A stretch of DNA of 25,163 bases. It comes from a virus. This document shows, in pieces, positions 1 to 3,326 of this stretch. Below the pieces are notes generated by a model. That model was not told the DNA's origin, did no database searches, and saw nothing but the letters and a program-made list of their open reading frames with translations. Every line of letters starts with the position of its first letter. Position 1 is the stretch's first letter. A program made the translations under genes and the position numbers. The DNA lies in IMG/VR virus record IMGVR_UViG_3300018424_000235, positions 1 through 25,163 of that record; one strand, given 5' to 3'.

Positions 1-496
1 CATCGATGAAACGTGTGACTGGTGCGAACATACTTTTTAGTCTAGTAGAGATGTTCTTTACGATAGCACTTTCTTTGATGGATGTTGTGATACCTTTGAC
101 GATGTTACCAACTCTAGTAGTAACACCAGAAAACATGAGTTTAATACCATTTGTAATAGCAGCCGCAAATCCTGCAACAAAGCCTGCAATCGCCGCACCG
201 ATTCCTGCAACAATTTGAAGAACACCTTTAAGTTCAAAACTTTCCCTGTCGATACCACCTTTTTCTTTTTCCTTCTTATCGTCAGTCGCACCTTTTTTAG
301 ATTCTCGGCGAGACTCTTCGGCATCCAACAATCCTTGTTGAGTCATTTTCAGTTGTTCACGAAGAAGTGTGGCAATATCACCCAAAGATTCAGACGCACT
401 AGACTGCTTAGAGATCATCTCTTTACTCTGAGTAGCGTTTTCTTCACGCAATCTAATGATTGCGTCTGTTACTTTGCCTAGGTTTTGTTCGGCCAT
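1..496 (-). CDS. Probable tail tape-measure protein, N-terminal 165 residues (runs off the window)
   Basis: The frame opens at ATG 496-494 and stays open to the window edge, so only the N-terminus is seen. It starts MAEQNLGKVTDAII, followed by a charged, heptad-like helical region (about residues 10-60) and a Lys/Glu/Asp-rich stretch (about 65-85). Next is a long hydrophobic Ala/Gly/Ile segment (about 92-125) that could insert in a membrane. Helical, charged sequence followed by hydrophobic segments is usual for tape-measure proteins, which set tail length and sit inside the tube. Context supports this: it directly follows a tail-tube-family gene and the gp26 frameshift pair, the position of the tape measure in lambda and P2. 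The T4 counterpart would be gp29. The ribosome site is weak (AAGAA), and the gene starts 6 bases after the frameshift frame ends, so translational coupling is likely. It could instead be another long internal tail protein; the rest of the gene would settle this. Confidence 0.6.
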   Translation of the reverse strand, partial: MAEQNLGKVTDAIIRLREENATQSKEMISKQSSASESLGDIATLLREQLKMTQQGLLDAEESRRESKKGATDDKKEKEKGGIDRESFELKGVLQIVAGIGAAIAGFVAGFAAAITNGIKLMFSGVTTRVGNIVKGITTSIKESAIVKNISTRLKSMFAPVTRFID

Positions 497-502
497 TTCT
501 TA

Positions 503-697
503 TTATCCGTGTTTCATCTGTTCTCGTTTTATGCGATCATTCTCTTCCTTCACCCATTCAACTAACATTGCAACGTAAATCTCCCTCTCCCACGGCATCA
601 TCATTTCAAGTTCGCTTAGACTGTAATGATGATGTTGCATTAACGAAAAGTTGGTCTTATAATGATTGACCAAATTATCGTGCGAGAGGTTTATGAT
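503..697 (-). CDS. -1 frameshift extension of gp26 (gp51-like C-terminal segment)
   Basis: If ribosomes slip back one base on T TTT TTA (703-697), translation continues for 64 codons from 697 to the TAA at 505-503. The product is a 297-residue protein made of 233 gp26 residues and this tail. The segment contains YSLSELEMMMPWEREIYVAM followed by a charged helix, a pattern I associate with small hub-assembly proteins next to gp26 in T4-like phages. The frame has no stop across its full length. Internal ATGs (640-638 and the ATG triplet at 604-596) lack a clear ribosome-binding sequence, so independent translation looks weaker than frameshifting, though it is not excluded. The tape measure begins 6 bases downstream of its stop. 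By analogy with lambda GT, the extension would bind the tube subunit or tape measure during tail assembly. Confidence 0.7.
   Translation of the reverse strand: MINLSHDNLVNHYKTNFSLMQHHHYSLSELEMMMPWEREIYVAMLVEWVKEENDRIKREQMKHG
651..673 (-). other. Inverted repeat downstream of the slippery site
   Basis: TTGGTC (673-668) and GACCAA (656-651) are perfect reverse complements with an 11-base loop. It could fold as a small mRNA hairpin inside the frameshift extension. It is too short and too far from the heptamer to be called a proven stimulator, and it lacks a U-run, so it is not a terminator. Confidence 0.35.
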
Positions 698-1395
698 AAA
701 AAATCGTTTATCCCCTTCAGTGTATATGTGTTGGTTTCACCACAACTCATGCAAGGGTAGGTTACTTCCTTTTTCAAAGAAGGCAAGTCCTGTAAGAACT
801 TAGACACTTCCTGAAACTGTTCGCTAGTCATCTGTTCGATGAACTCTTGCAATTCTTTCTCCGAAACATCTTTAGTATCGATGCGTTCTTCTTCAGTCTG
901 AATAGCAGACATACACTTGGACAACATCGCAAATCCAAGTTCGGTTTCGTTACCTTCCAGATCAAGAGCAACAATGTCTGTATAAGAAGGATACTTCATT
1001 TCAACAGAAATAGTGTCTGTCAATGGAATGACATTACTTTTTTCAGGCATATCCACTTCTATTGAAGAAATCTCTACGTCTACTTCATTCTTGGTTTTAC
1101 AACTAGAACAAGTTAACACGATAGTAGAAACTTCACCAACAGACTTTGAACGCACCTGAGTAAACAAGTATTCTATGTCGAAAGTTGTCAATGATTTTGT
1201 ATCGACATCTTCGGTGATACATGCACTTAGGGTATCTACAATAGCACCTAGTGCCTGTTTTTGTTCGCCTGTTTCAAATGCAATCATCAAAACCTTTTCT
1301 TCTTTTACCAAGTAAGGTCGGTAAGTTATACTTTGTCCAGTCGAAGGGACTTTCGTTGTATAACTAGGTGATGTATTTAACTTAGGTAATGCCAT
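691..1395 (-). CDS. 26: gp26-like baseplate hub/tail assembly protein
   Basis: This 234-residue protein resembles the T4 gp26 (T4_baseplate) family seen in T4-like phages. It begins MALPKLNTSPSYTTKVPSTG and contains two CxxC pairs, C96-x2-C99 and C215-x2-C218, which could form a zinc ribbon. The ATG at 1395 is preferred over the upstream in-frame TTG at 1407 because GGAG lies 6-9 bases before it. It follows the tube-like gene and precedes the tape measure, the place of the G tail-assembly chaperone in lambda. Its last codons, GAT TTT TTA TCA TAA, contain a T TTT TTA slippery heptamer, so a fraction of ribosomes may extend the protein in the -1 frame. Family assignment is from memory of the sequence pattern. 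The chaperone role is inferred from gene order and the frameshift. Confidence 0.75.
   Translation of the reverse strand: MALPKLNTSPSYTTKVPSTGQSITYRPYLVKEEKVLMIAFETGEQKQALGAIVDTLSACITEDVDTKSLTTFDIEYLFTQVRSKSVGEVSTIVLTCSSCKTKNEVDVEISSIEVDMPEKSNVIPLTDTISVEMKYPSYTDIVALDLEGNETELGFAMLSKCMSAIQTEEERIDTKDVSEKELQEFIEQMTSEQFQEVSKFLQDLPSLKKEVTYPCMSCGETNTYTLKGINDFLS
697..703 (-). promoter_or_regulatory. Programmed -1 ribosomal frameshift site (slippery heptamer)
   Basis: On the minus strand, T TTT TTA lies in the gp26 frame as GA[T TTT TTA] TCA TAA. This fits the X XXY YYZ rule exactly, and the gp26 stop is two codons on. A 6-bp inverted repeat (TTGGTC/GACCAA, 11-base loop, 673-651) lies 23 bases downstream. 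That is farther than usual for a stimulatory hairpin, so its role is uncertain. Confidence 0.75.
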
Positions 1396-1410: not shown

Positions 1411-2142
1411 TTAACCAAATATTCCCAACACTCCGCCAAGTACAGATTGAACAACGTTCTGTCCTTCAGAGATATAAGAACCAGGCTCACTTTCCCAGTC
1501 GGTGTAAGACAACTGTACAGAAAGTTCCATTAGTTCCGTACCATTGCCTATAGCTTGGTCTGTAAGAGTGGTTGGGTAACACTCTAATAATTTACATGTA
1601 TATGTAGTTTCCTTTTTAAAAGCAATTCCTACATCAATCTCACCTTGACTGAAATCTACTGGGCCAAGGTCGGGAATCTTGTTTGATATCGCAGAAGGTA
1701 TCTTGTTCAGTCCACCAAGTTGTTTCTTAAACGCTGACAATCTTTGTCCTTTTTGAATAGTGGACAACTCTACAGGATATGTGTAATCGTCAAAATAACC
1801 GACTTCTTTGGTCACAGGATTGTGTGCTAATCCCTGCCATACTTCGAAGTATTGACGAATCTTGTGACTGTTAGTTACAATAAAGGTAAGACTAATATCA
1901 GTGGTCGCAAACCCATTTGCAATTTTTCTCATGGTGGTTCCGATCTGATAGTCTTGCGATACGATTTGTCTGCCAGGCAATGCCGCTGCAGTACAAAGTA
2001 TATCTAATTCGTTGGGGTCAATCTCAAATCCTTCTATCTGCGGAAACTTTACCATGAACTGATTGCCCATGGCTGCACCACCAGACGAAACCAGTTGTCC
2101 CTTTAGGTCTTCTATTCCATACCCTGCTGCACTAGCACTCAT
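1411..2142 (-). CDS. Tail-tube-family protein (gp54 tube initiator or gp19-like)
   Basis: The 243-residue protein looks like the T4 gp19/gp54 tube family. GNQFMVKFP (26-34) is followed by a segment with ALPGR (54-58), SQDYQIGT (62-69) and RKIANGFATTDISLTFIV (72-89). This matches the tube pattern of an LPGR loop, a G-T-x-x-R-K-I-x-x-G-F strand and a T-F-x-V strand. Tube proteins stack as hexamers; gp54 forms the first ring on the baseplate. The ATG at 2142 overlaps the upstream stop as ATGA. Upstream of gp26 and the tape measure, this is the tube position of a lambda- or P2-type tail cassette. I cannot distinguish initiator from main tube subunit. gp54 is preferred because the main tube gene normally sits beside the sheath gene, which is not in the window. 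Confidence 0.65.
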   Translation of the reverse strand: MSASAAGYGIEDLKGQLVSSGGAAMGNQFMVKFPQIEGFEIDPNELDILCTAAALPGRQIVSQDYQIGTTMRKIANGFATTDISLTFIVTNSHKIRQYFEVWQGLAHNPVTKEVGYFDDYTYPVELSTIQKGQRLSAFKKQLGGLNKIPSAISNKIPDLGPVDFSQGEIDVGIAFKKETTYTCKLLECYPTTLTDQAIGNGTELMELSVQLSYTDWESEPGSYISEGQNVVQSVLGGVLGIFG

Positions 2143-2750: not shown

Positions 2751-2758
2751 TATTTATA
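2751..2758 (-). promoter_or_regulatory. T4-type late promoter (minus strand)
   Basis: The minus strand reads TATAAATA, the exact T4 late consensus recognised by RNA polymerase with the gp55/gp33/gp45 system. It lies 28 bases before the ATG at 2723. The TAA inside the box is also the stop codon of the upstream sulfotransferase-like gene. Confidence 0.75.
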
Positions 2759-3326
2759 CACGAACCCAATGTTTTTCTTTCAAAAAGAAGTCGGGTTTTA
2801 GAAAGTCTATAAGATTAACAATGGGGTCGTTCTCTACATCAAACTCTATAAACTTTGAATAGTTTTGAAAATATGTTCTAATATCGGATTCGGTTTTTTC
2901 ACGATCCCTCTTAAACCAATCTAACATGCCTTGTTCGTCTAGGTTATGGTATTCCATAGACCTTTTTAGATAAGCTCCCTTTTTATGATTTTTCTTGCTC
3001 TCTAACCAACCGTCCATTTCTCGGGTATTCAATATAAAATAAGAATCTGGATATTCTTGATTAAACTTGTCGTATAGTTTTATTCCGTCTATCCATTCGT
3101 TTTCACGATGCCAGAACATATCACTATACACATTTGCATGGTCAATATCATGCAACAAGTTATAATAAGACTCAAGGTTCGCTTTCATTTTTTGAGCAAG
3201 AACCGCAACATTGCCTTTTCGATCATGGCAGGCATAGTGAAAAGAAACATAACCACCTTTCTTGAACATTTCGCTAAATGCTTTGGTTGCGGTTCGATTG
3301 AATCCAATAATAAAGACTTTCTTCAC
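2754..3326 (-). CDS. Sulfotransferase-like protein (PAPS-dependent family)
   Basis: The 190-residue protein has the order of motifs of PAPS-dependent sulfotransferases. An N-terminal strand and phosphate-binding loop, VFIIGFNRTATKAF (4-17), matches FVVGxPRTGTTS-type loops. YSDMFWH (67-73) corresponds to the family's FSDxPxW region. FILNTREMDGWLES (97-110) corresponds to the 3'-phosphate-binding segment with the R-x(4)-W-x-x-S pattern. It is not a known T4 virion gene. It lies between the gp4-like and gp2-like genes, starts with GTG, and overlaps the gp4 stop by 4 bases (GTGA), so it is probably translated with the late genes. The substrate cannot be inferred; phage-encoded relatives could modify a virion glycan, host surface sugar or small molecule. 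A generic P-loop transferase is the main alternative. Confidence 0.6.
   Translation of the reverse strand: MKKVFIIGFNRTATKAFSEMFKKGGYVSFHYACHDRKGNVAVLAQKMKANLESYYNLLHDIDHANVYSDMFWHRENEWIDGIKLYDKFNQEYPDSYFILNTREMDGWLESKKNHKKGAYLKRSMEYHNLDEQGMLDWFKRDREKTESDIRTYFQNYSKFIEFDVENDPIVNLIDFLKPDFFLKEKHWVRV

Follow-up and report, generated by a model that had tools for sequence, protein, structure and literature searches.

The window, that is, the whole stretch of DNA that was analysed (25,163 nucleotides), is a 25-kb virus record in its own right, and the features of its tail locus are collected in Table 1. The gp26-like gene starts with an ATG at 1395, preceded by GGAG, stops with the TAA at 693-691 of the minus strand and ends AAG GGG ATA AAC GAT TTT TTA TCA TAA. 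In this 3' end T703, TTT (702-700) and TTA (699-697) form X XXY YYZ, a phase that fits a -1 slip, after which the reading would go on as ATC ATA AAC (I I N) from 697. The protein of the -1 frame begins IINLSHDNLVNHYKTNF, its 64 codons are open and closed by a TAA at 505-503, and the predicted fusion of gp26 and extension (TAC-NC) has 297 aa. A first-pass annotation made from the letters alone had described the end GAT TTT TTA TCA TAA, the in-phase heptamer and the 64-codon -1 frame, and all three are base-exact on the minus strand.

Table 1. Features of the gp26 locus and the evidence for each.
Feature	Position	Strand	Evidence
gp26-like gene, predicted short tail assembly chaperone (TAC-N), 234 aa	691..1395	-	Pfam, PHROGs, AF2 model
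Slippery heptamer T TTT TTA, candidate -1 frameshift site	697..703	-	Phase and conservation
-1 frame extension (TAC-C), 64 codons and stop	503..697	-	phrog_634
Shine-Dalgarno-like AAGGGG, candidate stimulator	712..717	-	8 nt upstream of heptamer
Candidate stimulatory stem-loop 3' of slip site	643..681	-	Core TTGGTC/GACCAA, 668-673 pairing 651-656
Probable tape measure gene, start only, runs off the window	1..496	-	phrog_3981, E 4e-4 (weak), and position
Tail-tube-like protein gene, upstream of gp26-like gene	1411..2142	-	phrog_45 tail tube, E 1e-23

The gp26-like gene matches Pfam PF12322 (T4_baseplate, E 1.7e-58) and phrog_150 (baseplate hub, E 4e-60), while the extension matches phrog_634 ('baseplate hub assembly catalyst', gp51, E 1.4e-26) and also positions 232-277 of phrog_150. 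The gene order tube-like protein, gp26, extension and tape measure, as first annotated, was recovered, the tape measure match being weak; this is the position of a chaperone pair, with a tube-like gene upstream and a weakly tape-measure-like gene downstream. The gp26 of the window (691-1395) also contains two CxxC pairs (CSSC and CMSC), which may make up a zinc ribbon; the second pair is substituted in some marine relatives. Elsewhere in the window, a gene located between the gp2-like and gp4-like structural genes (2754-3326, minus strand) is sulfotransferase-like (PF17784, E 1e-8).

An in-phase T TTT TTN was identified in 175 of 178 homologous loci and in 50 of the 52 representatives (sequences with <80% identity to each other); the conservation of heptamer and open -1 frame among relatives, which the first-pass annotation had proposed to look for, is thus found. 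In a first set, formed by 80 environmental loci and four named phages, the heptamer was present in all, and among relatives its final base varies (C, A, T or G). Carriers include KVP40, phiM12, Rhizobium N34, Cronobacter LPCS28 and Desulfovibrio phage 7757, together with the single records Rhizobium AF3, S-CREM2, Ochrobactrum ORM_20 and Vibrio EniLVp02. The two-frame layout is preserved in all full-length relatives of this type examined, and homologues of the extension, conserved at the protein level, occur across several phage families. TTTTTT in phase was identified at 7 of 11,376 codon positions elsewhere in the gp26 genes, compared with 50 of 52 representatives at the 3' end. With the amino acids taken as fixed, the choice among synonymous codons fell on the slippery ones every time, with a log10 P of about -26 for 50 representatives, -14 for 26 clusters at 60% identity, -10 for 17 clusters at 50% and -6 for 8 clusters at 40%, the larger of these figures being overstated because the sequences are related. 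The arrangement of heptamer and open -1 frame is real, not a product of chance, and deeply conserved.

Similarity among the extensions starts at their first residue, exactly at the slip site, in the 80 environmental loci and four named phages. Before extension residue 18 the sole start-like codon in the -1 frame of the window is one TTG, without a Shine-Dalgarno match; over the same interval 30 of 50 representatives have neither ATG nor GTG, and 16 of 50 have no ATG, GTG or TTG. These counts bear on a first alternative, in which a small, separate gp51 gene supplies the extension from a start of its own, by translation coupled to gp26 termination. Separate CDSs are indeed given in the deposited annotations of P-SSM2, KVP40 and Mosig, and the P-SSM2 clade has a -1 frame ATG after the gp26 stop. 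Since this ATG, shared with several other lineages, lies 12-18 nt downstream of the first heptamer base, gp51 might start independently too in these organisms, which are the exceptions to an otherwise conserved -1 frame domain without a start of its own. As a general explanation the independent start is rejected, given the 16 representatives without any start codon. A start at the first -1 frame ATG of the window (about 640) would remove the conserved N-terminal part of the extension; furthermore, a separate start does not fit a conservation that begins exactly at the slip site or a T4 gp51 that continues across the junction, and it leaves the conserved choice of slippery codons unexplained. 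The separate gene is on these grounds highly improbable.

Candidate stimulators of a -1 slip were identified on both sides of the heptamer. Upstream there is a Shine-Dalgarno-like stretch whose best 8-nt window, at -15 to -8 from the heptamer, has a mean duplex energy of -6.0 kcal/mol against a background of -0.98 kcal/mol (50 representatives); it is the lowest-energy window of the gene studied here and falls within the best tenth of windows in 44 of 50 representatives. The corresponding position of T4 gp26, which has no slip site, gives -5.8, and the signal is therefore partly forced by conserved Lys/Glu-Gly codons. The Gly codon at this place is purine-ending (GGA/GGG) in 35 of 50 cases versus 130 of 351 elsewhere (p 1e-5). 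Downstream, the 70 nt after the heptamer have a mean folding z of -2.17 (s.e. 0.22, 49 representatives), computed against dinucleotide shuffles, and eight windows upstream of the heptamer have z from -0.61 to 0.02 (about -0.3 on average). All pairs (12/12) of the stem-loop of the window are preserved in the nearest relatives only, and a stem conserved pair by pair was searched across all families and found in those nearest relatives alone. As candidate parts of a dnaX-type signal, the Shine-Dalgarno-like element and the downstream structure are both statistically enriched, the former being confounded by conserved residues and the latter varying in its stem pairs.

The exceptions to the heptamer are grouped in the Ackermannviridae and related vibriophages, where the equivalent place is occupied by N-NTT-TTC/T instead of T TTT TTN and the -1 frame is open. 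This group comprises phiA8-29, Vibrio D528, Serratia 3M, Klebsiella UPM 2146, Salmonella STML-13-1, Dickeya Ds9CZ and Vibrio SD25, with CTT TTC, GTT TTC, ATT TTC or GTT TTT as the codons at the site, and its -1 frame codes for a related domain with an MPWHL-type motif in most members. The canonical heptamer is present in Vibrio Bakedbeans and Stenotrophomonas Bhz51. The first-pass annotation had named a missing slippery site, or stops between the frames, as findings that would speak against it; the site is missing only in the Ackermannviridae branch, and there the -1 frame is still open. G GTT TTC is the shift site of T7 gene 10, which the Ackermannviridae-type sequence resembles, and a switch to a shift site of that kind possibly took place. 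A search of viral contigs for relatives of the Vibrio D528 gene found none. The gp26 3' ends of the Ackermannviridae-type loci L092, L097, L191, L198, L199, L200 and L201 have N-NTT-TTC/T and no T TTT TTN.

A second alternative is that the frames are joined by transcriptional slippage on the T run and not by ribosomal slippage. Polymerases can slip on homopolymers, and T runs of 6-8 are present at these junctions, although six T are short for polymerase slippage. The Ackermannviridae relatives keep the layout with TTTT only, and the Shine-Dalgarno-like element and the downstream RNA structure fit ribosomes, which makes transcriptional slippage very unlikely. An extension that is non-functional read-through or a sequencing artefact is hardly credible, and sequencing error is rejected, since the junction is identical in three other, independent metagenome contigs (L001-L003) and the extension is conserved at the protein level across several phage families.

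The AlphaFold2 model of gp26 has a pLDDT of 87. The top VIA-align matches of its residues 1-96 were 3FGX (Z 8.1) and HK97 gp13 (2OB9, Z 7.5), followed by a next match at Z 4.5; Foldseek gave E-values that were not significant, with 3FGX and 2OB9 having the highest probabilities among the matches listed. Both proteins are described as phage tail assembly chaperones (PMC9603447). By sequence, gp26 had no match among solved structures (PDB search) and T4-type gp51 had none that was credible. A T4-type gp51 model derived from 8 sequences matched no chaperone in the fold search (best Z 3.6), and neither sequence nor structure searches matched lambda G/T or P2 E. In lambda, the partner of the short form is the tape measure protein, and that of the T domain is the tail tube protein (PMC5009743). 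T4 gp51 is needed for assembly and is not in the particle (PMC3004832). Because of the moderately strong fold match of gp26, the absence of gp51 from the particle and the roles known for lambda G/GT, gp26 and its extension are taken to be a G/GT-type tail assembly chaperone pair, by homology, model and analogy. The first-pass annotation had proposed G/GT-like chaperones, and the proposal gains support from the fold (3FGX, 2OB9) and from the fact that the fusion is homologous over its full length to T4 gp51, which serves in assembly and is not found in the virion.

The T4 genes 26 and 51, on opposite strands, are separate as first annotated, and represent the two-gene version of the same pair. 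The profile of the fusion aligned with that of T4-type gp51 over essentially the whole length and unbroken across the junction (E 1.5e-22), the short form with T4 gp26 (E 3e-27), and T4-type gp26 with the N-terminal 200 residues of gp51 (E 7.7e-19), versus E 0.1-0.3 for the controls (four unrelated T4 proteins and a reversed gp51 profile). On this sequence comparison T4 gp26 and gp51 are paralogues, the fusion corresponding to gp51 and the short form to gp26, and T4 therefore has the short and long chaperone forms as two genes. T4 gp26 ends GAG TTC TTT GAG, with the slip site absent. The gp51 of cyanophages and a marine vibriophage had been reported without the first 200 residues of T4 gp51 by Sullivan et al. 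2010 (PMC3037559). In the simplest reading, an ancestral frameshifting gene would have been duplicated; the short form would have been retained by one copy (26), and in the second the long form would have become fixed in a single frame (51). In one T4-type isolate genome (L106, 3001-3746) gene 51 is broken by a frame change near codon 120, from sequencing error or decay.

Taken together, 1395-503 very probably encodes a G/GT-type (TAC-N/TAC-NC) chaperone pair of a T4-like marine phage, the long form being made by a predicted -1 slip. Most ribosomes would end at the gp26 stop codon and yield the short chaperone, and we infer that a minority would shift back by one nucleotide at T TTT TTA and yield the fusion, probably aided by the internal Shine-Dalgarno-like sequence 8 nt upstream and by the downstream RNA structure. 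The C-terminal part of the predicted fusion corresponds to that of T4 gp51. On the lambda model, coating of the tape measure protein would fall to the short form, and recruitment of tail tube subunits to the long form. We see an even chance that a three-part stimulated signal (Shine-Dalgarno-like element, U-run heptamer and downstream RNA structure) lies at the gp26/gp51 junction and has been kept in Kyanoviridae, Schizotequatrovirus, Emdodecavirus and Pootjesviridae, with a switch to N-NTT-TTC/T at the equivalent position in the Ackermannviridae and a loss of the site in T4 following gene duplication.

In deposited genomes the extension appears as an independent gp51 or as a 'hypothetical protein', or is missed, being unannotated in S-WAM1 (L083) and ACG-2014d (L091), and the long chaperone is therefore missing from those records.

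The lambda slippery sequence is GGGAAAG and differs from the T TTT TTA of the window, and gp26 differs from lambda G/GT and P2 E/E' in having an extra C-terminal part after the chaperone-like domain. HK97 gp13 and RBSTP2171 (3FGX), the best fold matches to residues 1-96, have about 100 aa against the 234 aa of gp26, with no sequence similarity in the PDB search. The -1 signal of E. coli dnaX comprises a Shine-Dalgarno-like element, the heptamer AAAAAAG and a downstream structure; candidates for the same three parts are present here, with TTTTTTN and not AAAAAAG as the heptamer and with putative stimulators.

The closest scheme is the one published for T4-like phages in 2022, which reportedly names T4 genes 26 and 51 and has frameshifting retained in several T4-like groups. 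It has the same genes with a short and a long form, produced by frameshift in some T4-like groups and by separate genes in T4, and the window is an additional marine member. The paper on T4-like tail chaperones (Vladimirov, Gautam & Davidson 2022, Virology 566:9-15, doi 10.1016/j.virol.2021.11.003) is cited in PMC9603447, and the passages on it in PMC10885494 and PMC12846349 credit it with the two-gene solution of T4 and the poly-T frameshift signals. The frameshifted T4-like pair was already described in that year, as was the link of T4-type hub assembly to the general chaperone scheme, and the window adds one more case of a known device. Added here are the counts over 178 loci, the codon statistics, the upstream Shine-Dalgarno-like element and the downstream structure; the candidate stimulators and the possible Ackermannviridae site switch may be new to the literature. 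A 2016 review still had T4 as the exception to the conserved frameshifting of tail chaperones (PMC5009743). This exception is explained, as marine and many other T4-like phages retain the frameshift and T4 has two genes instead.
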